From a virus: DNA of 26,670 nucleotides. A program made the position numbers and the translations under genes. Under the pieces are notes generated by a model. That model did not search any database and was not told where the DNA came from. It saw only the letters and a list, made by a program, of their open reading frames with translations. Positions 494 to 21,178 of the stretch are shown piece after piece. Each line of letters starts with the position of its first letter. Within the stretch, counting starts at the first letter, position 1. The stretch covers positions 1 to 26,670 of IMG/VR virus record IMGVR_UViG_3300050013_000156. One strand, written 5' to 3'.

Positions 494-1021
494 ATGCCTA
501 CAATTATTTATAAAACAGCAAGAGAAGCAAAAGCAGTAGGATCTAAATTTTATAACGGAAAACCTTGTATACATTGTGGTCAAAATTTACGATATTCATC
601 TGTTTATAGTTGTGTAAATTGTACAAAAAAGCGATCACAGATGGATTATAAATTTCCAACAATTGAACAAGAAAAAAGAAATAAAATATATGAAAATTCC
701 GATAAAAGAAAATTGAATAAAATAAAGGAGCATATAAAACGTCATTATAATTTATCCATCGAAGAATATAATGATTTATTTAAAAAACAAAAAGGATCAT
801 GTGCCATTTGTTTTAAAAAATTTATTAATTCACCTAATGTGGATCACGATCATGTAACAAATAAAGTTAGAGGTTTACTTTGTAAGAATTGTAATATGGG
901 TTTAGGACAATTTAATGATAGTATTGAAAAATTACAAAATGCTATTAATTATTTAAAATTAAACCGGGATTCTGTTTCCACGCTCCCGGAAGGCGCATCC
1001 ACAACAACCTTAGGCTGCTAG
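494..1021 (+). CDS. Endonuclease VII-like HNH homing endonuclease
   Basis: This 175-aa protein has a zinc-binding N-terminus (CIHC near residue 26 and CVNC near 40). Its endonuclease VII core is CAIC...DHDH...GLLCKNCN...GQF (residues 102-140), the zinc-plus-HNH arrangement of T4 endonuclease VII and of many free-standing phage homing nucleases. The start at 494 has AAAGGA 9 nt upstream, behind a late-type promoter. The last 19 residues (NRDSVSTLPEG...) are encoded by the antisense of the tmRNA tag and 3' hairpin and are not part of the usual domain. The gene therefore seems to have lost its own stop by inserting at the tmRNA 3' end. It lies on the plus strand, opposite to its neighbours, which fits a mobile gene. 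Confidence 0.9.
   Translation: MPTIIYKTAREAKAVGSKFYNGKPCIHCGQNLRYSSVYSCVNCTKKRSQMDYKFPTIEQEKRNKIYENSDKRKLNKIKEHIKRHYNLSIEEYNDLFKKQKGSCAICFKKFINSPNVDHDHVTNKVRGLLCKNCNMGLGQFNDSIEKLQNAINYLKLNRDSVSTLPEGASTTTLGC
955..989 (-). terminator. Hairpin with T-rich tail ending the tmRNA transcript
   Basis: CCGGGA (989-984) pairs with TCCCGG (969-964) around a 14-nt loop and is followed by TTTAATTTT. It may be a factor-independent terminator or the 3' hairpin of the tag-coding piece of the permuted tmRNA; the two roles can coincide. It lies antisense inside the C-terminal codons of the HNH gene. Confidence 0.55.
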
Positions 1022-1391
1022 TGGGAGTTCGAAATCATTAGATTCGAATTTTGTTGTTTTCTTCCGATTAATGAGGGTTGCTACTCATGTCGCGTCTTCA
1101 CTCGCATCAATCCCGTCGAAAGCCTTTCGTCCCCGTATAAATGATAGTTTAGAATTACCCATCCACACTTAGAATTTCTTCTCGGAAGTATATCATTATA
1201 TGGATTGGAGACGGGCGGATTTGAACCACCGTCCGAAAAAGTGTCTGTAAAGGTATATACGACAATACCGTTAAAATGTCAAAGATCTAATCAAGCGGAA
1301 CGCATTTGTTACTCTAGGTACCATTGCACTTCGCCAGCCTATTAGAGCAATATATTAAATTAGGCCGATCTGCTACCAACAAATGCGTTCC
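964..1391 (-). ncRNA. ssrA: Circularly permuted (two-piece) tmRNA
   Basis: tmRNA acts as both tRNA and mRNA to free stalled ribosomes and add a degradation tag. On this strand the 3' part comes first. A T-arm of 5 bp with loop TTCAAAT (1234-1214), preceded by the tmRNA-typical TTTCGGACG, runs into the acceptor strand CGTCTCC (1213-1207) and an A at 1206. After a 71-nt intervening segment comes the 5' part: GGGGACG (1134-1128), which pairs with the acceptor strand with one G-U, then AAAGGCTTTCGACGGGAT, the tmRNA D-region hallmark. GTGAAG/CTTTAC and GCGAC/GTCGT can form helix P2. The best tag frame (about 1063-1010) ends KKTTKFESNDFELPLAA-stop; the resume codon is uncertain. Upstream, a 14-bp stem (1391-1378 with 1310-1297) encloses an H-type pseudoknot: GGCCTA/TAGGCT and ATTGC/GCAAT. 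CCA is not encoded. This is the permuted order known from alphaproteobacteria and some cyanobacteria and betaproteobacteria. Confidence 0.88.
1297..1391 (-). repeat. 14-bp inverted repeat enclosing a pseudoknot (5' part of permuted tmRNA)
   Basis: GGAACGCATTTGTT at 1391-1378 is perfectly complementary to 1310-1297. Inside, GGCCTA (1366-1361) pairs with TAGGCT (1341-1336), and ATTGC (1351-1347) with GCAAT (1327-1323), in the interleaved order of an H-type pseudoknot. This is what is expected of a tmRNA P5/pseudoknot domain placed at the 5' end of the permuted precursor. Confidence 0.75.
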
Positions 1392-1434: not shown

Positions 1435-1626
1435 TCAAGCACTAATCCAACCCGCCGAAACAATTATATCCAGCGCATCATCAAATTTTTCTTTTTTTAA
1501 TAATACATTAGTGTCATGCCGGACTTTGCGTTTAGATGCTCGTATTTGGAATTGTCCCCATGAACTGCGGGATCCAAAACAAGATGCCCTGTAACTACAT
1601 TTAATTACGTTTTTCTTTCTTGCCAT
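1435..1626 (-). CDS. Small basic hypothetical protein (63 aa)
   Basis: The ATG at 1626 has AGGAGA 7 nt upstream. The protein is strongly basic in residues 1-46 (KK, R, K-rich, three S/R clusters) with two cysteines and a C-terminal helix DDALDIIVSAGWIS. The family is unknown to me; a nucleic-acid-binding role is possible but not shown. It lies between tRNA-Pro and the tmRNA and is presumably co-transcribed with them. Confidence 0.7.
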   Translation of the reverse strand: MARKKNVIKCSYRASCFGSRSSWGQFQIRASKRKVRHDTNVLLKKEKFDDALDIIVSAGWISA

Positions 1627-1676: not shown

Positions 1677-1751
1677 TGGTCGGAGAAATTGGGATCGAAC
1701 CAATGTAATCCAGTTCCCAAAACTGGTGCCTGGCCTCTAGGCTACTCTCCG
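1677..1751 (-). tRNA. tRNA-Pro (anticodon UGG)
   Basis: The 75-nt gene folds fully. The acceptor CGGAGAG (1751-1745) pairs with TTCTCCG (1687-1681), the discriminator is A, and CCA is encoded (1679-1677). The anticodon stem is CCAGT/ACTGG with loop TTTGGGA, giving anticodon UGG, and the T-arm is ATTGG-TTCGATC-CCAAT. The C1-G72 pair start is typical of bacterial tRNA-Pro. It lies in the same minus-strand unit as the tmRNA. Confidence 0.96.
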
Positions 1752-3153: not shown

Positions 3154-3735
3154 TTATTTTCTTTTAAAGAAAACCAATAATGCTAATCCACCAACCATCA
3201 AGAAAGTAGGCTCCGGAGTAACTTGTAACAAATACGTTTGAGGTATACCATCTTCCAAAGGAAATTCAGAACCTTCTAATGGTACAAGTATTTGAAACGC
3301 TGACAGATTAATAGTATCATAATTTAATTCAGATTGCAATACAAAATTATTGGTTTCTAAAATATCCTCCGAAAAACTAGTTGAAGGAGTATTAAATATA
3401 ATCCATATTGCCTGTTGTATTGCAATCGTTTGATTTGGTTGAATTGCAAATTGCGTATTTAACCAACTAGCTTCTTCTAATTGGATAAATTCTGAACCCG
3501 AAAAATTTGTAATTGGAACTTCAGTGGCTTCCCAAACTTCTCCGTTATATACATCATCAAAAAATGAAATACATGGTCCAGAAATAGGAATATTATTTAC
3601 GGTTAGATTATAAGGTCCCACATAATCGGTCCCATTTGTAATATTTCCCCCATTAATAAAATTTACATTAAAAAATACTGGTGTCGCAAGCAATAAAATT
3701 GAATTAACAAAAAATAAACTTAAAAATTTCTTCAT
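3154..3735 (-). CDS. Secreted PEP-CTERM protein
   Basis: The 193-aa protein begins with a signal peptide (MKKFLSLFFVNSILLLATPVFF). It ends with a PEP-CTERM sorting signal: PEP, a hydrophobic helix FLMVGGLALLVFF, then KRK. In bacteria this signal is cut by exosortase, which places proteins on or outside the outer membrane of polysaccharide-producing Gram-negatives. The body shows YVGPY...C...FDD...Y.GE.W.A...EEA.WL..QF...AIQ.AIW.IFN, a pattern I associate with acidobacterial PEP-CTERM proteins (memory, not a search). Residues are N/F/S-rich with few cysteines. It overlaps the gene before it by ATGA, so it is embedded in the phage operon. It is probably a host-derived accessory gene. Confidence 0.88.
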   Translation of the reverse strand: MKKFLSLFFVNSILLLATPVFFNVNFINGGNITNGTDYVGPYNLTVNNIPISGPCISFFDDVYNGEVWEATEVPITNFSGSEFIQLEEASWLNTQFAIQPNQTIAIQQAIWIIFNTPSTSFSEDILETNNFVLQSELNYDTINLSAFQILVPLEGSEFPLEDGIPQTYLLQVTPEPTFLMVGGLALLVFFKRK

Positions 3736-9006: not shown

Positions 9007-9804
9007 ATGTCTACAAATACTTATAATACAGGAATCTATGTGATTCTCAATAAAATATCCAAACATTTTTATCCGGGATCCTCCATTGATTTAAATAAAC
9101 GTTGGCGCATACATAAAATTGCTTTAAATCATAATAAACACCACTGTATCCATCTACAAAGATCATGGAACAAATATGGTCCCAATGCCTTTACATTCCT
9201 CCATATTGAATATACCACCTTGGATGCACTAACACCGGTATGGTCCGAAAAACACCAATGTAAAGTAATATTACCTGAACAATTTTGGTTAGACAAATAT
9301 TGGGGCACTGGATTACTTTATAATAGTTGTCCGATTGCTGGGTCTACAAAAGGACGAAAAAAATCTAAAGAACAAAAAAATAAAGAAATATTATATTGGA
9401 CAACAGAAAATAGAAAAAAACAATCCCAAAAAGTTAGTGGAGAAAATAATGGTATGTTTAGAAAACATCACACACCAGAAGCTTTAGAAAAGTGTGTAAA
9501 ACGTGGGAAAGAACATCCGATGTATAAAAAACATCATACTGAAGAAGCTAAAGAAAAAAATCGTCAATCACATTTAGGTAAAAAAGCAACACCCGAAGCT
9601 ATAGAAAAAATGCTAAAGAAAAAAGAAAAATATCTTTATATTTTAATGGATCCATTAGGTAAAAAATATAAAACAAAAAACCTAAAAAAATTTGGAAGAG
9701 ATTATAATTTATCTTTTCCTTTAATAATTAATAAACCTATAACAAGAGGGCCAAATAAAGGATGGCAATTAATATCTAAAATTCTGCTCCCGATCCAACA
9801 TTAA
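9007..9804 (+). CDS. GIY-YIG homing endonuclease with NUMOD3 repeats (265 aa)
   Basis: The ATG at 9007 has AGGAGGT 7 nt upstream, so the earlier in-frame TTG at 8959 is rejected. The N-terminus is a GIY-YIG nuclease: TGIYVILN, then FYPGSS (in place of YIG), KRWRIHK with the conserved R, and a glutamate in LPEQFWLDKYWG. It is followed by NUMOD3-type DNA-binding repeats (RKHHTPEALEK, KKHHTEEAKEK, LGKKATPEAIEK) and a terminal helix-turn module KTKNLKKFGRDYNLSF. These free-standing enzymes spread themselves by cutting uninhabited alleles. The gene is on the plus strand between P5 and the convergent kinase gene, whose 3' end it overlaps by 29 nt. Confidence 0.92.
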   Translation: MSTNTYNTGIYVILNKISKHFYPGSSIDLNKRWRIHKIALNHNKHHCIHLQRSWNKYGPNAFTFLHIEYTTLDALTPVWSEKHQCKVILPEQFWLDKYWGTGLLYNSCPIAGSTKGRKKSKEQKNKEILYWTTENRKKQSQKVSGENNGMFRKHHTPEALEKCVKRGKEHPMYKKHHTEEAKEKNRQSHLGKKATPEAIEKMLKKKEKYLYILMDPLGKKYKTKNLKKFGRDYNLSFPLIINKPITRGPNKGWQLISKILLPIQH

Positions 9805-10723
9805 ATAAAGGAAGACCCAAAGATCTCCACATTCTACAAACACGATTCCGATCATCCACTATAACGAACACGTTAAATTTTCCTCTAATGTGTTCGTCAA
9901 AAAATTCCTTTTTGACAATTTCATCCGATCGACCGTCTCCAGTGGTCCTCATTACCAATTGGTAATAACCATCATTTAAACCAAATCCGCATTTATTTAA
10001 TAAAAATCGTTCAGTAGGTTCTCGATATTTATCTTCTCTTCCTGAGAAGAAATAAATTTGAGAAATTTTGGGGAATGAAGCATTATTAAGAGCATAAGAA
10101 ATAGCATAAGTCTTCAATAGATTCAAAACCGTTGGATTTGGTTCATCTATAACATCACAATGCGAAGCATCATACGGACTCCTACGGTTCCCAAATAAAG
10201 CAAGGGTACCATCAAGATCACAAATTATAGTCCAAGGGAGTTTAGGGTCCACTGGATATAGATCAACCTCCGGAATCAAACCACCTTCGTGTGCCATTTT
10301 CAATATCACCTCAGGACCAACAAATCGTTCACCACGCAATTCTCTTGCTTTATCACGATCAATACAAACCTGAATAGGAACATCACGGAAATCCTTTAAT
10401 ATAATCTCGATTTCAGGGAAATTCTGTTTCAACCAAGTATTCATTGATTGGAAAGTTTTTTCATTTAGATAGGTATTGGATAAAATAACATCATTACCAT
10501 CTTTTAAAGCTCGTTCAATCCTTTCTGTACGAACCTTTTTAACTTTCTTTTCAAACTCTGGAGTCCATGGAGACCCATCAGAAATTTCTTCCCTGATATC
10601 GTCATTATTAATATCTTGAATTTTATATGTACCTAGGCCACAATTTTCAATAAATTGCTTGGCCCAAGTTGTTTTTCCGCTTGCTGGTAACCCTCTACAT
10701 ATCCAAACTATTCTTTGTTTCAT
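9776..10723 (-). CDS. pseT: T4-type polynucleotide 5'-kinase / 3'-phosphatase
   Basis: The 315-aa protein (T4 Pnkp is 301 aa) has an N-terminal kinase with P-loop GLPASGKT (11-18) and a LSNTYLNEK region. The C-terminal HAD phosphatase has CDLDGTLALF (D169, D171; T4 uses D165, D167), FFSGREDKYR, and VIVDDRNRVCRMW. It heals RNA ends after host anticodon nuclease cleavage, adding 5'-phosphate and removing 2',3'-cyclic or 3' phosphate. Its partner RNA ligase 1 is at 12730-13917. It follows the 136-aa gene by 2 nt in the P6 unit and converges with the GIY-YIG gene. Confidence 0.95.
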   Translation of the reverse strand: MKQRIVWICRGLPASGKTTWAKQFIENCGLGTYKIQDINNDDIREEISDGSPWTPEFEKKVKKVRTERIERALKDGNDVILSNTYLNEKTFQSMNTWLKQNFPEIEIILKDFRDVPIQVCIDRDKARELRGERFVGPEVILKMAHEGGLIPEVDLYPVDPKLPWTIICDLDGTLALFGNRRSPYDASHCDVIDEPNPTVLNLLKTYAISYALNNASFPKISQIYFFSGREDKYREPTERFLLNKCGFGLNDGYYQLVMRTTGDGRSDEIVKKEFFDEHIRGKFNVFVIVDDRNRVCRMWRSLGLPLFNVGSGAEF

Positions 10724-11171: not shown

Positions 11172-11414
11172 TTAAAGAATAACAGATTTTTCTGGTACAA
11201 TATCATGAACTTGTTTATTAACCGTTTCCTCAAGCGTTTGACGGACCGCTTCCACCACATAAAGAGTGAAAGCCACCTCTTCTTTATAAAGAGGATTTGT
11301 CTTTAATACATTTTCTGCGGTTTCCTTCACCAGTTTCAGAACATCAACTCCACCTTTATCGTATGCGCGGTTAACCTCAAGGATTAATTCGCGTGCTAAT
11401 TGTTTATTTTCCAT
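11172..11414 (-). CDS. Small helical hypothetical protein (80 aa)
   Basis: The start follows the stop of the previous gene by 1 nt, with GGAAG upstream. The product is almost all predicted helix (LARELILEVNRAYDKGGVDV, then ETAENVLKTNPLYKEEVAFT), without cysteines or motifs. No family is recognised. It is the last gene of the P7 operon; its stop abuts the -35 box of P6. Confidence 0.75.
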   Translation of the reverse strand: MENKQLARELILEVNRAYDKGGVDVLKLVKETAENVLKTNPLYKEEVAFTLYVVEAVRQTLEETVNKQVHDIVPEKSVIL

Positions 11415-11415
11415 A

Positions 11416-11637
11416 TTACTTTACTTCCTTTTCCACCGGAACAGGAACTTCACTGATTTTCTCAATTACTGAAGGTGGAAAATAAACCAATATTTTACTT
11501 TTTCCATCCTCTGAATTTTCCGTATTATAAACTCCTAAACTTAGGATAGTTTTACATGCGGAGTCAAAATTTTTAGCTTTTCCCTCAACTTCAATTCCTT
11601 TTTTCCCTTGTCCTTTTACATAAACTAATGCTCTCAT
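11416..11637 (-). CDS. Small hypothetical protein (73 aa)
   Basis: AAAGGAG lies about 9 nt before the ATG at 11637, which overlaps the nuclease stop by ATGA. The product has a beta-rich start (MRALVYVKGQGKKGIEVEGK), then a helix and a strand KILVYFPPSVIEKI, and a valine/proline tail. No family is recognised. Coupling to the nuclease gene suggests a shared context only. Confidence 0.75.
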   Translation of the reverse strand: MRALVYVKGQGKKGIEVEGKAKNFDSACKTILSLGVYNTENSEDGKSKILVYFPPSVIEKISEVPVPVEKEVK

Positions 11638-12296: not shown

Positions 12297-12733
12297 TATT
12301 TCGGACTTTCCGTGGGGTCCCATTGGAATGGTTGATGTTCATTAAAATCAAAAATTGATTCTTTACCAGTGCCACCTAATTTATTAAATGTTGCATCCAA
12401 TCGGTCACATTCTTGTTTCCTAATCAAGCGGGAATTTAATTTTACAATCGCAGCATCAAGTGCCTCCTCAAAAGGTATTTCCATTTGATTAGATAAAGCG
12501 ATAATAGGAACTAAAACATCTCCTAATTCCTCAATCATATGTTTCCTTGATGTAGATTTCTCTGGAGAAAATGGTCTCCCAAAAAATGAGCGGACCACTT
12601 GACGCAATTCACCAGCCTCTTCAATAAGCGTGGCAAGTAAATGGTCAAACTCTACAATATTAAATAATGCGGAACTTGGCCACATTTTCAATCTAATATT
12701 ATTAACAGCTTTAATTTGGTCTTGCAATATCAT
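12296..12733 (-). CDS. MazG-like nucleotide pyrophosphohydrolase (145 aa)
   Basis: The all-helical MazG/dUTPase-like metal motif is present: LIEEAGEL (E38, E39, E42) and MIEELGDVLVPIIAL (E69, D72). A longer loop FGRPFSPEKSTSRK separates the two helices. These enzymes cleave (d)NTPs to NMPs, and in phages have been proposed to tune the nucleotide pool or host stress signals. It overlaps RNA ligase (ATGA) and the nuclease (TAATG), so all three are translationally coupled. The substrate cannot be told from sequence. Confidence 0.9.
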   Translation of the reverse strand: MILQDQIKAVNNIRLKMWPSSALFNIVEFDHLLATLIEEAGELRQVVRSFFGRPFSPEKSTSRKHMIEELGDVLVPIIALSNQMEIPFEEALDAAIVKLNSRLIRKQECDRLDATFNKLGGTGKESIFDFNEHQPFQWDPTESPK

Positions 12734-13917
12734 ATCTTATCCACAATCTCCAATAACTTATCCGTAGGCATTCCAAGTACCCCTTGGCGAATACTCTTTA
12801 TTTTTTCTTTTCGTAAAGAAAATAAAACTCCTGATAATTGATTTTCTACAGCTTTTAGTGCAAAATCTTTCTGAATTTCTATATCTTTAATTGTATCATA
12901 AAATAATTCGGCTGTCAATACAAGTTTATCAACTTTCTCTTTCATTTCCAAATACATTGCTTTTTCAGCAGGCCATTCATCCAAAATCTTATAGGAAAGC
13001 ATTTCATCCGATTCACCCGCTTGAATAATTTCCATCAATCGCTTACGTGGATTTCCATCTCGGATGTGGTGGATTGCTATATAGGCAGGACTCTTAATTT
13101 TAATACGATAAAAATTCTTATCAACAACTACATAACCTTCCATTTTAAGTGGATTTAATTTGGAGGCCGCTTGAATTACTTCTTCTAAATTGGTTAAGGG
13201 AAATTCTTTCACGACGTATCTTACATCGGTACGTTCCTGAATCAGATTCAATTCCTGTTCTGTGAAATTATTTCTTATACCAATTAAAGTAATTCTTGAA
13301 CCATCATTTGCATAACCAGTTACATCTACCAATTCATTTATTGATTCAAGCATTTCTGTTTTAGTATAATCACAAACTATCCTATTATAAGGGGAAGTCA
13401 ATTCCCATAAATAGGTATAATTGATATTGAATTTTCCAGTAATACTTAAACCTTGCATGCAATGTTCGCAAGAATTCCAAAATAAACGAGAAAATATTAG
13501 TGGAACAGAAACCCCATCTTCTATCCAAGGGAAATCACCAACAGGACCAGAAGCATCTGGACTCCCACGGGTCGCTATTTGCCATTCACCATCATAAAAA
13601 TACATAATTATAAGGGTCCCGTCCACCTTTTCTTGGACTCTTGCGGAATTCCAGTCTATAGAGTCTGCTTGGAATTCTCCGTAATTGAAGAACCGATTGA
13701 ATGGATATGCAATTATTTTCCAATTATCTTTAGAATTTAAAATGAGTCCACGGCACTGGTTCACAAGAGGATCCCCCTTTGGGCTATCAATCATATTATA
13801 CACAAATTGATATAACTCTGGATAATCTGGGTGCCGTTTTACTGAGAGAAAATAAGGGTCCTTAGTTAATATTTCAGGATCAATTCCTGTTCTTAATAAT
13901 TCTTGTATGTAGAGCAT
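12730..13917 (-). CDS. rnlA: T4 Rnl1-type RNA ligase
   Basis: The protein is 395 aa from the ATG at 13917 (T4 Rnl1 is 374 aa, with nucleotidyl lysine K99). The nucleotidyl lysine motif is QEKVDGTLIIMY (K97-V-D-G). Further motifs are CRGLIL (55-60), ATRGSPD, YLWELTSPYNRIV (motif III), MEGYVVVD (motif IV) and YRIKIKSPAYIAIH (motif V). It seals RNA ends made ready by the kinase/phosphatase at 9776-10723, repairing tRNAs cut by host anticodon nucleases. A TTG at 13929 would add four residues without support. It overlaps the 53-aa gene before it by 25 nt. Confidence 0.95.
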   Translation of the reverse strand: MLYIQELLRTGIDPEILTKDPYFLSVKRHPDYPELYQFVYNMIDSPKGDPLVNQCRGLILNSKDNWKIIAYPFNRFFNYGEFQADSIDWNSARVQEKVDGTLIIMYFYDGEWQIATRGSPDASGPVGDFPWIEDGVSVPLIFSRLFWNSCEHCMQGLSITGKFNINYTYLWELTSPYNRIVCDYTKTEMLESINELVDVTGYANDGSRITLIGIRNNFTEQELNLIQERTDVRYVVKEFPLTNLEEVIQAASKLNPLKMEGYVVVDKNFYRIKIKSPAYIAIHHIRDGNPRKRLMEIIQAGESDEMLSYKILDEWPAEKAMYLEMKEKVDKLVLTAELFYDTIKDIEIQKDFALKAVENQLSGVLFSLRKEKIKSIRQGVLGMPTDKLLEIVDKI

Positions 13918-14054
13918 AATTGTTTCCAATCATTTTCAAAAAATTCCATTTGATATAAGTATAAAGTTTTAATTAATTCTTCCCATTTATAATTATACCA
14001 AAATTTGGATATCCCATTCCTTTTATTACATTGTGAAGTATAAAATGGTGTCAT
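13893..14054 (-). CDS. Small aromatic-rich hypothetical protein (53 aa)
   Basis: The frame MTPFYTSQCNKRNGISKFWY...STYKNY-stop has GAGGA 7 nt before the ATG at 14054 and begins 3 nt after the upstream stop. It is rich in Y, W, N and K. No family is recognised. It overlaps the ligase start. It fills what would otherwise be an empty gap between two coupled genes. Confidence 0.68.
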   Translation of the reverse strand: MTPFYTSQCNKRNGISKFWYNYKWEELIKTLYLYQMEFFENDWKQLCSTYKNY

Positions 14055-16550: not shown

Positions 16551-19500
16551 CTACAATTCACAAGAGGTTCCTGACATACATGCCAATTCTTTAGCACTGG
16601 TAGTTCTATCATCATTTTCATATTCGGATATTTTAGACCAATCAACATTAGTAGGCATCAATTTTTGAAATTCATTATATTCTTCTTCCGTTATTTCTCT
16701 ATATGGTACCTGTTTATATGTCCCACCATCATACGGCAAAAATGTTACTCCGCCAATAATATCAAAATTTTTATAAACCCAGGAAGCAACATCTATCCAT
16801 TCCGAATCTTTTACATATACAGTAATACTAATATTATGTTCTGCCCAATTATGTTTAAATCTTTTCATTAATTCCAATTGCTGAATTGCGCCATAATCAT
16901 CACGAAAAATAGAATTCAATGGGGACTTTATAGGAAAAGAAAAGATTGTAGTATTTTGAGGTTTTAAAACACAGGGTTCATTTGGAATTTTCTGGTCAAT
17001 CATCAATTGAGTTAAGGGATCTTTATTATCCATTCTAACCGTTCTTATGTAAAATGGAGAATATCTAGGATGTATACCAGATCCTGAATTTACCAATTGT
17101 GAGGTATTTCCGCTAGGTTTTACTGTAGTAATAGCAACCGATTGATTTATCTTAAAAATTTGACTCCAATATTTATTTACTTCAATTGATTCCAATTTTA
17201 ATTTTTTTAATAATTCTGGACCATTTACAGGATCAATTAATAAAGTATTATCAAGGATACCAGTTAGTGAGACTCCCAATAATCTTTCCTCGTCAGCATT
17301 CTTTTTCCAAATTTTACGTAAATATTTAAATGAAGTTAAACAAGATTGCATTGTGCCGATAAATGTGGCCACTTGAATTTTATTTTTTAATGATTCAAAT
17401 GTATCCTCTGGTCTTACAACCACTTCGGATAAATTACAGAAGGAATTAGGTCTCAACAGGATTTCGCCGCATTGCAAATTATTTATACAAATATATTTGT
17501 CTTTTCCATTTTTTTGTTTTTCTAAAAATCCGCCAATAAAAAAATTATGAAATTCATCTACAGTACCACTATATACATCCTCAAAACCATCAAGTTCAAT
17601 AGATATAATTTTATGGTTATAAAATTCTGCCTCTTTTTCTAAATCTTTCCAAAACCTAAATGGAGAGGTTTTTCTGGAAATTTCAAAAGATACATTTTCT
17701 TTTTTACAAGATTCTATCCATTCTTTTTTATCTGGTTCTCTTTTTAATTTAAATTTTAAATTTGAATATATTTCAATTTGTTTTTTCCGGAGTTTTGATT
17801 TCTTTTTACTCCATCCTTTCTTTAAAGCTTTTATTGTTTTCTCCCTATAAATAGGATTTTCCCAATTTTTTTGTGCCACACAAGAAAAATGCCTCATAGT
17901 TTCCGGTCTGGTTGTAATAAATTCTTGTTTACAACTTTCACAAACTTTATTAAAAAATATTTCTGAATTTTCAATAAAACAATCATATCCTTGTTCTAAA
18001 TATTTTTTATAACTTTTTTGTAACCTAGGATCCAAATCAATCATCATCTTATCAAACCCACAAACATTTGCAGCCCACAAAGACAATCCTCTTATATCAC
18101 CGATATTATTTTTACGCCAATCAGAAAAATTTAATGGTAAATTGTGTTCTTCAGCATAATTATGCCAATCATTAGTAGAAAATCTATAACCAATCTTTTT
18201 TGTTAATATTAAAGCGTGTTCTTGTAATTGTTCGTTTGTAAATCCGCCAAAATTTTGATTTTTTTCTCCTGTATTATTTAAAGATTGTTTTTCTCTATAT
18301 TTGTCCCACTTTTCTTTATCCCATTCTACTTTAGCTCTTCTCATGGGATTTTTATCACCCAACATATTCCTTGAATGTAAGTAATCGTGGTCTTTTTTTG
18401 TCATTATTTGGAGATTTTCAAAATTATTATTTTGACCATTAAAATCTTTATGATGTACCACAGAACCTTTTGGTATAATGGCATTATAAAAAAATGGTGC
18501 AATAATTCTATGTTCCATTTTATTATTAGAAAACCCATTATTTATCCAAAAATAATCTTGAGGATTAGAATTTGTTTTGGGAAAAATATCTTTCATGGAA
18601 CATTCAAAACGAGTACAAATATTTAAACTATCTCCGGGGTTCAAATCTTTCACTTGAATATATTGTTTTTCTTTATTTAAAAATTTATGATTTCCAGTAG
18701 CTCTTATGATATGATTATTTTCTAATGTTATTTTATAAATTGGTTGCTTATATCCCGTTATTCTAGGATTTCTCATATATCGAATATCAATTTTATTTTT
18801 TTCATCATAACAAAATACTGGAACATCTAATCCAGTTTCGGCCAATTCTTTAATGGATACAAATCCTCTACCATCAGCTACATAAATTAAATTTTCACCA
18901 GTTAAACAGGGATTTACGCCAGCCACCTTAGACCAATCTCTACGTTCATTTCCAGATTTGGATAAATTCCATAAACTTAATATACCACGTTCTCCAGATT
19001 TGCTACGATATAAAGAAATCCACTCTTCTAGAAAGGTACTAAGTTCTGGTTTCGTATAATAAACCGCAGAATTATTAGCATATGATCTCTGAGAATTCGT
19101 TTCCCACCAATTACCAGATTTAGCGTGAGATATTTCATTATCAAAAATATCAGATAAACCAATTAAAGCGGCCCTTCTGGTTCCTCCAGATTCCGCAATT
19201 AATCCAATTTTGCAACAAATGTCATGGCATTCAATACTTTCTAATTTTCTTCCGGCGGCATTTTTAAAAAGTTTAACCACAAATTCAAACAAATCTACTA
19301 AAGGACCCGGTCCACTAGCCCTACCACCAAAAGTTTTTAAAATTGATCCATAAGGTCTTACTTTAGAAATATCCCAATTAGGAATTTTACCAGCATATAA
19401 TAGAGATATTAATTCTCGCAAAGCAGAAGCCCAACCAATCTTAGAATCCGGAACATCTATAATTGTATTTGTTGGGTAAAATTCAGCAGGGATATCTGGT

Positions 19501-19898
19501 AATTTGGATATATATTTCTTTTCAACAGAAAAACCCACACCACAACCACAACAAGACAAATACAAAATTTCATCAAAAGAATGTGGATGATCTATGGTTA
19601 TAAAAGAACAATTATAAGATGCAGCAGCATGGCTTTTGAGTGCCGGCCCAGCAGTTTTTAATGCTCTCATTGATGGAACAACTTCTAAATTTAAAATACT
19701 ATTTTTAGTTTTTTCTAATTCTTTAAGAAAATCCTTTTTATCTTTAGATTCAAGATTATGATTTTCTACCATATAATCAGAGAAAAAATCAATATATCTT
19801 TGAACGGTTTCCTCCCAAGTTTCGCGTCTATTTAAATCATTACGCCATCTACTGTACTTGGAAAGGTGTATAAAATTCTGATAATCTGTTGGAAGCAT
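16551..19898 (-). CDS. nrdJ: Class II (B12-dependent) ribonucleotide reductase precursor with intein
   Basis: The 1115-aa precursor consists of extein 1-330, intein 331-809 and extein 810-1115; the spliced enzyme is 636 aa. It reduces ribonucleotides to deoxyribonucleotides without oxygen. Visible marks are AASYNCSF (C97), GVNP joined to CGEILLRPNSFCNL (thiyl cysteine and glutamate of NPCGE, and a second cysteine 11 residues on, as in the Lactobacillus leichmannii enzyme C408/E410/C419), VKPSGNTSQL, and a C-terminal redox pair CMSGTSC. The monomeric triphosphate-reductase type fits best; it is shorter than the 739-aa Lactobacillus enzyme. The start follows the ThyX-like ORF as TAAATG. It is in one unit with primase. 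Confidence 0.93.
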   Translation of the reverse strand: MLPTDYQNFIHLSKYSRWRNDLNRRETWEETVQRYIDFFSDYMVENHNLESKDKKDFLKELEKTKNSILNLEVVPSMRALKTAGPALKSHAAASYNCSFITIDHPHSFDEILYLSCCGCGVGFSVEKKYISKLPDIPAEFYPTNTIIDVPDSKIGWASALRELISLLYAGKIPNWDISKVRPYGSILKTFGGRASGPGPLVDLFEFVVKLFKNAAGRKLESIECHDICCKIGLIAESGGTRRAALIGLSDIFDNEISHAKSGNWWETNSQRSYANNSAVYYTKPELSTFLEEWISLYRSKSGERGILSLWNLSKSGNERRDWSKVAGVNPCLTGENLIYVADGRGFVSIKELAETGLDVPVFCYDEKNKIDIRYMRNPRITGYKQPIYKITLENNHIIRATGNHKFLNKEKQYIQVKDLNPGDSLNICTRFECSMKDIFPKTNSNPQDYFWINNGFSNNKMEHRIIAPFFYNAIIPKGSVVHHKDFNGQNNNFENLQIMTKKDHDYLHSRNMLGDKNPMRRAKVEWDKEKWDKYREKQSLNNTGEKNQNFGGFTNEQLQEHALILTKKIGYRFSTNDWHNYAEEHNLPLNFSDWRKNNIGDIRGLSLWAANVCGFDKMMIDLDPRLQKSYKKYLEQGYDCFIENSEIFFNKVCESCKQEFITTRPETMRHFSCVAQKNWENPIYREKTIKALKKGWSKKKSKLRKKQIEIYSNLKFKLKREPDKKEWIESCKKENVSFEISRKTSPFRFWKDLEKEAEFYNHKIISIELDGFEDVYSGTVDEFHNFFIGGFLEKQKNGKDKYICINNLQCGEILLRPNSFCNLSEVVVRPEDTFESLKNKIQVATFIGTMQSCLTSFKYLRKIWKKNADEERLLGVSLTGILDNTLLIDPVNGPELLKKLKLESIEVNKYWSQIFKINQSVAITTVKPSGNTSQLVNSGSGIHPRYSPFYIRTVRMDNKDPLTQLMIDQKIPNEPCVLKPQNTTIFSFPIKSPLNSIFRDDYGAIQQLELMKRFKHNWAEHNISITVYVKDSEWIDVASWVYKNFDIIGGVTFLPYDGGTYKQVPYREITEEEYNEFQKLMPTNVDWSKISEYENDDRTTSAKELACMSGTSCEL
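17472..18908 (-). mobile_element. 479-aa intein with HNH endonuclease, inside the RNR active site
   Basis: It begins C-LTGENLIYVADGRGFVSI, with block B in IIRATGNHKFL, an HNH core SVVHHKDFNGQNNNFENLQI, and block F in VYSGTVDEFHNFFIGGF. It ends ICINNLQ before the +1 cysteine, which is the catalytic cysteine of NPCGE. The last residue is Gln instead of Asn and the penultimate one is Leu instead of His, so splicing chemistry is of a rarer type. Removing it restores GVNPCGEILL exactly. A zinc-like pair CESC...C (about 345-370 of the intein) may help bind DNA. Confidence 0.93.
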
Positions 19899-20066
19899 TT
19901 AACCTAATCTTTCTTTATAATTTGGAATAAATTCTTTCACATTCTCATTTTCAAATTCATGTCTATATTGTGCCCACCCGCGGTGTAATTTAACTTCCAT
20001 TGTAACCAGCCGAACACCTTCTGGACTTATAGAATCACAAATTATTTTCGCTGTAGGTTGACTCAA
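19899..20066 (-). CDS. 55-aa protein with a ThyX-like N-terminus (truncated or derived)
   Basis: A TTG at 20066, with GGAG 7 nt upstream, gives MSQPTAKIICDSISPEGVRL followed by VTMEVKLHR, which is the first strand-turn-strand of FAD-dependent thymidylate synthase ThyX (xAKIIxDSxSPxGxRLTTxxxxYPR). In ThyX this is followed by FIHxExxTHRxFSRNxxSSRAIP. Here it continues GWAQYRHEFENENVKEFIPN and stops. The catalytic region is absent, so it cannot be an active ThyX. It sits between primase and RNR, where thyX would make sense. It could be a decayed gene or an unrelated short family; a GTG at 20078 is an alternative start. Confidence 0.65.
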   Translation of the reverse strand: MSQPTAKIICDSISPEGVRLVTMEVKLHRGWAQYRHEFENENVKEFIPNYKERLG

Positions 20067-21088
20067 TTTCTTCTCCACTCATTAATCGCTATTCTTGCTT
20101 GTAATCCTGTAAATGTATTATTATCTATGATATTCATAATTTCCTTAGAAGTCTTTCCAGATAAAATCATATCATTCAAATCCTTTTCATATATATTATC
20201 CGGCCACACACATAATTTTTTACCACTATCTGCTATTCGTTTCATATTTTCTATCAGCGTTTTATTCCGTGGTTCATTATCATATAGGAAAACCAAATTA
20301 TCAAAAAGGGATAAATCCGAAGAACCCAAATTGGATCCAGCGGCAGCAATAGAATTAGAAATGCAAAGACTGTCAAAAGGACCTTCCACCACGTATACTT
20401 TATTGGTGGGAACCACCCGATCCAATCCGTATATTTTTGGAGACTCTTTATCCACTTTGATGGTGATATATCGGAGTCCTTTGTTACTGAAGGATCGTCC
20501 TTGTATTGCAGTAATTCGTTTTTCTTTATTTCGGAAGGGAATAATAATGCGGGGTTCTTTAATCGTAATTCCATATTCATTATCTGGTTCAATCTTATCA
20601 ACTAACGATTTAAAATCATTAATAAAATATATATCATTCCAATATTCTACTGGAATCTGCCTTTGTGCAATATACGTTCTAGCATAATGCAAATCGGATA
20701 AGTCAGCAATACTAACACAAGTATCCAAAATATAATTATTTGATCCAGTAGAAATATGATCTTGGAAATTAGGTTTGAAATTAAATTTACCATATTCATC
20801 TTTCTTATCAGGAGTTTTCTCTTTATACCTTTCAAAAATATATTGTTCATATAAATCAAAATTTATTTCTTTAAGGAAATCACCTAAGGAACAACTACGA
20901 CCACAATTATGACAATAATAATGTAAATTATCACCTTTTGTAATAAAGTATCCCCTTGCTTTAATTTTACTTTTTGCTGAATCCAGGCAAAATGGGCACC
21001 GCAGGTTGTAAGTCTTTGTATTTTTTCTTTTAAATTTATCTAACTGAGGACCCACTTGAGAAATATATTTATGATCTATGAATAACAT
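20063..21088 (-). CDS. DNA primase, T4 gp61-like
   Basis: At 341 aa it matches T4 gp61 (342 aa). An N-terminal zinc finger is RCPFC (C31, C34)...YYCHNC (C59, C62). A TOPRIM domain follows, with VYVVEGPFDSL (E235), FLYDNEPRNK (D270, E272) and WPDNIYEKDLNDMI. It makes RNA primers on the lagging strand together with the gene 41-type helicase, which is not in this window. The ATG at 21088 has no clear ribosome binding site; upstream is a 100-nt leader with a 14-bp stem. Its last codons overlap the start of the ThyX-like ORF. Confidence 0.93.
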   Translation of the reverse strand: MLFIDHKYISQVGPQLDKFKRKNTKTYNLRCPFCLDSAKSKIKARGYFITKGDNLHYYCHNCGRSCSLGDFLKEINFDLYEQYIFERYKEKTPDKKDEYGKFNFKPNFQDHISTGSNNYILDTCVSIADLSDLHYARTYIAQRQIPVEYWNDIYFINDFKSLVDKIEPDNEYGITIKEPRIIIPFRNKEKRITAIQGRSFSNKGLRYITIKVDKESPKIYGLDRVVPTNKVYVVEGPFDSLCISNSIAAAGSNLGSSDLSLFDNLVFLYDNEPRNKTLIENMKRIADSGKKLCVWPDNIYEKDLNDMILSGKTSKEIMNIIDNNTFTGLQARIAINEWRRN

Positions 21089-21099
21089 AATTAACCGGT

Positions 21100-21178
21100 G
21101 AGTAGATTTCTATCAATCATGAATCCCAGTATATTTAATCCATAACATGTATGGCCGCCGGGTAATAGAAATCTACTC
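21100..21178 (-). promoter_or_regulatory. 14-bp stem-loop in the primase mRNA leader
   Basis: GAGTAGATTTCTAT (21178-21165 on this strand) is perfectly complementary to 21113-21100, around a 51-nt loop that holds a smaller hairpin CCATA-CATGT-TATGG. The transcript from P9 should start about 4 nt before the stem. The stem ends 11 nt before the primase ATG, which lacks a Shine-Dalgarno. It could regulate translation, protect the 5' end, or be a small RNA in itself. Confidence 0.65.

Follow-up and report, generated by a model that had tools for sequence, protein, structure and literature searches.

A T4-like phage fragment (IMG/VR virus record IMGVR_UViG_3300050013_000156; the window, here the whole stretch of 26,670 nucleotides that was analysed) carries a genuine circularly permuted, or two-piece, tmRNA gene on its minus strand, as the original prediction had proposed. 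The gene shows sequence and structural homology to permuted tmRNAs and keeps their key elements, which suggests that it would be expressed, processed, charged and used for tagging, and may benefit the phage. We put at about 0.88 the probability that the phage encodes a two-piece tmRNA that is processed, charged with alanine and, in dependence on host SmpB, adds a tag bearing an LAA degron.

A covariance search with the permuted model, named in the original prediction as its check, returned RF04321 (tmRNA_permuted) over its full length and above the cut-off: cmscan aligned model positions 1-213 of 213 to 1264..1010 on the minus strand at 87.9 bits and E 6.8e-16, the gathering cut-off being 47 bits. 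A second covariance model, made from 45 aligned viral coding pieces with the window's own sequence excluded, also matched end to end (1134..957, minus strand; model positions 1-172 of 172; 26.8 bits, E 4e-5). The gene and its two pieces are placed as follows:

1010..1264, minus strand: core of the permuted tmRNA gene, from the full-length RF04321 match
1206..1264, minus strand: acceptor piece, from the sequence and the RF04321 alignment, its 5' end being approximate
964..1134, minus strand: coding piece, from the 45-piece viral covariance model and cofolding

Score, gene order, G3:U70 with A73, P2 and an LAA tag place the gene in RF04321, the two-piece tmRNA family of Alphaproteobacteria, Betaproteobacteria and Cyanobacteria, with which it shares the permuted order, the 7-bp G3:U70 stem, the T-arm, the D-region, P2 and the LAA tag, and from which it differs in having no encoded CCA and in its diverged resume context and first tag codon. 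Among lineage models RF01850 (beta_tmRNA) scores best and aligns to the same gene end to end, but its 45.5 bits fall short of the 84-bit cut-off, which many viral relatives exceed, and the gene is not filed in that subtype. No match was returned by blastn of the gene against phages, and near relatives were found in IMG/VR neither by two gene-specific patterns nor by a wider pattern for the 5' half; in bacterial genomes a 5'-half pattern gave two matches, both standard tmRNAs. By its sequence the window's tmRNA is a divergent copy, in which CCA is not encoded and the conserved resume-codon context is gone.

The neighbouring genes support a T4-like origin of the fragment, to judge by a gp61 primase, a T4-type RNase H, Pnkp and an Rnl1-type ligase:

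1677..1751, minus strand: tRNA-Pro (UGG) with encoded CCA (ARAGORN; RF00005, 55.7 bits)
1435..1626, minus strand: 63-aa ORF (ORF63) between tRNA-Pro and tmRNA, with no known relative found
494..1021, plus strand: Endonuclease VII-like ORF (PF02945, E 1e-22; phrog_2633, E 2.8e-30)
9776..10723, minus strand: T4-type polynucleotide kinase/phosphatase, Pnkp (phrog_505, E 2.7e-68; PF25109)
12730..13929, minus strand: T4 Rnl1-type RNA ligase (phrog_562; PF09511, E 2.8e-16)
20063..21088, minus strand: T4-like gp61 DNA primase (tblastn, best hits in cyanophages and Melnitz, at about 41% identity)

The tRNA-Pro that had been named as a neighbour is thus in place, while the RNA repair set said to lie next to the gene does so only loosely, Pnkp and the ligase being 8-12 kb off; no relative of the ligase was found in IMG/VR. 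The Endonuclease VII-like ORF converges on the tmRNA gene and runs into the 3' end of the latter: the homology of the ORF ends at about residue 158, and its last ~17 residues are encoded antisense to P5/PK2. It resembles in position the T4 segB endonuclease gene beside tRNA-Arg, and may be a homing-type gene that settled next to the tmRNA. Further along, a ribonucleotide reductase (16551-19898), whose hits are annotated as B12-dependent, is interrupted by a stretch matching HNH endonucleases, which is likely an intein. No SmpB gene was found in the 18 phage records searched, the window included, by a search that was positive in 10 of 14 control genomes, so that SmpB must be supplied by the host.

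Read along the minus strand, the T-arm, the 3' acceptor strand and A73 precede the intervening sequence, which is followed by the 5' acceptor strand and UUUCGACGGG:

1264-1259, minus strand: P2 3' strand UGUCGU (acceptor piece)
1230-1214, minus strand: T-arm GGUGG-UUCAAAU-CCGCC (acceptor piece)
1213-1207 and 1206, minus strand: 3' acceptor strand CGUCUCC and discriminator A73 (acceptor piece)
1205-1135, minus strand: intervening sequence of 71 nt, from the sequence, which processing of the precursor should remove
1134-1128, minus strand: 5' acceptor strand GGGGACG (coding piece)
1121-1112, minus strand: D-region UUUCGACGGG (coding piece)
1093-1088, minus strand: P2 5' strand GCGACA (coding piece)

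The acceptor pairing and the 71-nt gap had both been anticipated correctly. All seven base pairs of the acceptor stem GGGGACG/CGUCUCC form, G3:U70 included, and with A73 next to them they make up the identity of alanine; the stem covaries in viral relatives (GGGGAUG/CAUCUCC, GGGGGUG/CACCUCC), and the intervening sequence measures 47-74 nt in those found by pattern. P2, which had been said to be able to form, does so where the family has it, as the 6-bp UGUCGU/GCGACA, and in relatives both strands change together (UGCUGU/ACAGCA, UGUUGU/GCAACA, GGUUGU/ACAACU). In strength alone this duplex is within chance, since 0.67 of shuffled sequences do as well when both windows are searched freely, and its support therefore comes from position and family covariation. 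After A73 the gene reads AUC and CCA is not encoded, while ACC is encoded there in 79/79 distinct viral relatives and the phage's own tRNA-Pro, in contrast to the tmRNA, has its CCA encoded; the CCA position of tmRNA genes is not always CCA (PMC11915505). A sigma-70-like TTGACA-17-TATATA spotted by eye inside the acceptor piece was taken as chance: a start there would exclude P2', and it is absent from the output of the promoter scan, for which T at position 6 is mandatory.

The coding piece holds the remaining elements:

1088-1071, minus strand: PK1-region hairpin AUGAG/CUCAU
1010..1045, minus strand: tag frame (E)SNDFELPLAA-UAA, from translation
999..1024, minus strand: P5-type hairpin CCAC-U-AGCAGCC/GGUUGUU-GUGG, its loop containing the stop codon UAA, from folding
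964..997, minus strand: PK2, with S1 UGCGC/GCGUG and S2 CCGGGA/UCCCGG, from the sequence, S2 being in the MFE fold

The frame closed by UAA at 1010-1012 translates as ...KFESNDFELPLAA, and its end, FELPLAA-UAA, agrees with the predicted tag frame ending in ELPLAA and a stop. Relatives with readable tags nearly all have AND....LAA or close forms, and a ten-residue alignment to AND...LAA tags gives SNDFELPLAA here, starting from UCU at 1042-1040; tag residues 2-3 are then N-D and residues 8-10 L-A-A, and the length is the modal ten codons. In a fold comparison the relatives likewise hold the stop codon in a hairpin loop. PK2 can form, its loop 3 having the AACAGAA that is conserved in many rows of the viral coding-piece alignment, and we infer the pseudoknot by homology.

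The start of the tag is where the gene departs from its relatives. Their resume context (A/G)UAAAY-GCN is not present in the window's gene, which has AAAAUUCGAAUCU instead; membership in the family stands, because this context is typical of relatives and no condition of the covariance-model cut-off. Where the relatives have UAAAY before GCN, the window's gene has AAAU followed by UCG, and a start at this point would give a different frame, SNLMISNSH. The spacing from UUCGAC to the resume codon is 68-76 nt in most relatives, a range that suits UUC at 72 or GAA at 75. In E. coli tmRNA an A at -4 of the resume codon is important. The resume codon is uncertain, and GAA at 1045-1043 is favoured, since it keeps A at -4 and stays in the LAA frame; the predicted tag would then be (E)SNDFELPLAA.

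On the reading that we prefer, tRNA-processing enzymes would cut the minus-strand transcript: RNase P would cleave at G1, where the coding piece begins, and the acceptor piece would be trimmed at its 3' end and receive its CCA at A73. The 71-nt intervening sequence would be lost, with the acceptor stem and P2 keeping the two pieces joined. Charging by the alanyl-tRNA synthetase of the host would go by G3:U70 and A73, and host SmpB would deliver the tmRNA to stalled ribosomes. Translation would then continue on the coding piece and append a short tag, (A)(E)SNDFELPLAA being the likeliest, with a C-terminal LAA degron. A rescue system and possibly a tag of the phage's own had been suggested: a tag of its own is plausible, given an uncertain resume codon, and rescue would rely on the host, as no SmpB is encoded.

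The altered resume region lends itself to another account, in which the tmRNA is decaying or non-tagging and its tRNA-like half would enter ribosomes or titrate SmpB, the tag frame being disturbed. The AAAU retained directly before UCG in the RF04321 alignment would lead to SNLMISNSH-UAG, which has no degron, and ARAGORN at -ps80 chooses the SNLMISNSH frame too; CCA is not encoded and the resume context is lost; and there is a precedent in phage DS6A, for which a tmRNA made of the TLD only, which inhibits tmRNA, is on record (PMC4131195; PMC11915505). Against this, the LAA frame keeps N-D, L-A-A, the modal ten-codon length and UAA in the P5 loop, the elements P5, PK2, acceptor stem and T-arm are all intact, and with GAA as resume codon the LAA frame still has its A at -4; we regard loss of tagging as quite improbable.

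The default ARAGORN call of a standard one-piece tmRNA at 1636-1206 with the tag VSAGWISA is almost certainly wrong, since it combines the genuine T-arm with a GGAGAC that lies shortly ahead of ORF63, takes the start of this ORF, which lacks UUCGAC, for the 5' half and the end of ORF63 for the tag, whereas an Rfam scan at gathering thresholds gives the permuted form only and ARAGORN itself, at a lowered threshold, recovers the permuted gene and agrees on its tRNA-like halves. The ARAGORN check named in the original prediction therefore bore out the permuted form at the lowered threshold and failed at the default. At -ps80 the tRNA-like halves are as expected and the tag frame differs; because the lowered threshold agrees on the permuted form, the default miscall comes down to a limit of detection, of which the divergent resume region is the probable cause. 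Default ARAGORN misannotates such genes, and two-piece phage tmRNAs are probably under-counted in viral data.

A pattern for the permuted gene matched 108 IMG/VR stretches, and of the larger records sixteen were re-scored with RF04321, all of which (16/16) exceeded the cut-off, about half being contigs of 140-174 kb. Seven related phage isolates were chosen for sharing the primase or a phrog_11903-type protein with the fragment, and three of them, the T4-like or related Methylophilales phage Melnitz, Synechococcus phage BUCT-ZZ01 and Rhizobium phage RHph_I1_18, have, like the window, a permuted tmRNA above the RF04321 cut-off. The tmRNAs of Melnitz and RHph_I1_18 are alpha-type, whereas the window's is closest to beta-type, under that cut-off; a glutamine riboswitch (RF01739) adjoins ssrA in Melnitz and has no match in the window at 900-1800. 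Mycobacteriophages (Bxz1 and others; PMC4131195) also bear ssrA, but theirs is one-piece and not permuted. Another related phage, Ochrobactrum phage vB_OspM_OC, gave no permuted tmRNA match and has an annotated putative ArfA rescue factor (L116 3804-4001). The novelty implied in the original prediction is not supported: the Melnitz paper reported a two-piece phage tmRNA and found 53 of 133 unique phage tmRNA structures to be two-piece (PMC9004378), and such tmRNAs are common in environmental phages, in IMG/VR among them, so that the window's gene is a divergent addition and not a new type.

Directly upstream of the tmRNA lies a structure that had been attributed to it:

1297..1391 (arms 1297-1310 and 1378-1391), minus strand: perfect 14-bp stem GGAACGCAUUUGUU/AACAAAUGCGUUCC with a 67-nt loop
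1297-1391, 1909-2010, 3332-3427, 11402-11487 and 21100-21178: perfect inverted repeats in the window

The stem is real and far beyond chance (z -3.56 against shuffles; stems of at least 12 bp in 4/60 Markov-1 sequences of window length). It is one of five perfect 12-14 bp inverted repeats in the window, with loops of 50-80 nt, where about 0.07 are expected from Markov-1 shuffles. The original prediction of a 14-bp stem holding an H-type pseudoknot within the tmRNA survives for the stem alone: GGCCUA/UAGGCU could pair together with AUUGC/GCAAU or GCUCUA/UAGAGU, but the loop folds like shuffles (z 0.15), which does not demonstrate the pseudoknot, and the stem is outside both the RF04321 and the beta_tmRNA match. 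No Rfam family, riboswitches included, was found at 1297-1391 up to E 10, nor was GOLLD or another large phage RNA found at the window; T4 species 1/2 RNAs (rnaC/rnaD), considered as a model for long stems, have predicted folds without an end-to-end closing stem.

The stem could be part of the tmRNA precursor, as an extra domain of the acceptor piece or as a site (e.g. for RNase III) where processing generates the 5' end of that piece. Its perfect 14 bp and its z-score are consistent with this, the promoter scan reports no promoter-like site directly upstream on the same strand, and L048, L062 and L118 have stems of 20-24 pairs with one end at, or inside, P2' of the acceptor piece. It nevertheless stands outside both family matches, is absent from most permuted relatives, has a loop no better structured than chance and has counterparts between tRNAs, hence is not tmRNA-specific; we consider a place in the precursor possible, if on the unlikely side. 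Still more tentatively, and with some doubt, the stem may belong to a class, so far undescribed, of RNA modules with long stems (14-25 pairs; loops ~40-115 nt) that lie between stable RNAs in phage tRNA/tmRNA arrays, and may create or protect the 5' end of the acceptor piece; if so, it would let the tmRNA be expressed from a polycistronic transcript. Such modules were recorded at:

L139 17255-17332, 17419-17520, 17591-17676 and 19029-19130; L143 3005-3101; L151 1521-1598: long-stem modules of ~16-20 pairs
L042 2094-2197; L047 2547-2634; L090 8693-8778; L062 1004-1093; L048 7502-7610: further long-stem modules of ~16-20 pairs

In loci selected for tmRNA, 12 of 17 stems of at least 16 pairs, one of the 12 being an acceptor/intervening-sequence stem, fall within the 9% of sequence near tRNA/tmRNA genes, and in six other large phage contigs and part of BUCT-ZZ01, 14/18 stems fall within 3% of sequence; the two sets are partly dependent, as the BUCT-ZZ01 tmRNA stem is in both and one L139 stem spans two neighbours. 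The modules occupy gaps between phage tRNAs and tmRNA, often from the CCA end of one tRNA to the first base of the next gene. Many share the arms ACCATATTNAAGCACATT...AATGTGCTTNAATATGGT and some have a T-arm-like GGTTCGAATCC; in those with ACCATATTNAAGCACATT arms the loops vary, and a T-arm lies within the loop in L139 17419-17520 and L143 3005-3101. The window's arms, TGGAACGCATTTGTTG, fail the ACCATAT-family consensus ACCATATTNAAGCACATT, so that architecture alone is in common. No Rfam family for long-stem modules was found in the L143 region that was searched. A second subfamily (L129 14459-14590, L143 2464-2587, L167 6470-6595), in which the loop GTAAGCCATGGGCTTGATCATGCCTGAGTAACTATGTACA...CCGTTGAGCATAGCAAATAGTGC is conserved and the arms differ yet remain fully paired, looks like an undescribed structured RNA of phage tRNA arrays. 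An inner motif GCTGGTAAAACCGATAAATTCC...CAGGATTTGCA is common to long-stem elements of different phages at L118 1792-1922, L042 2192-2335 and L047 2844-2987, the arms of L118 and L042 being unrelated; at L029 1867-1954 a stem of 22 pairs, unusually long for a pre-tmRNA, takes in both the acceptor stem and the intervening sequence of a permuted gene; and GOLLD RNA with an internal tRNA occurs at L042 120-579 and L047 562-1022, both phage contigs that also have a permuted tmRNA.

The simplest idea of what the phage gains is that it keeps the gene to maintain translation while host RNA is degraded. The two-piece tmRNA described here lends support to the idea that T4-like phages come with a rescue RNA and tag of their own and borrow host SmpB, and its altered resume region is a case in which the setting of the tag frame can be put to the test.
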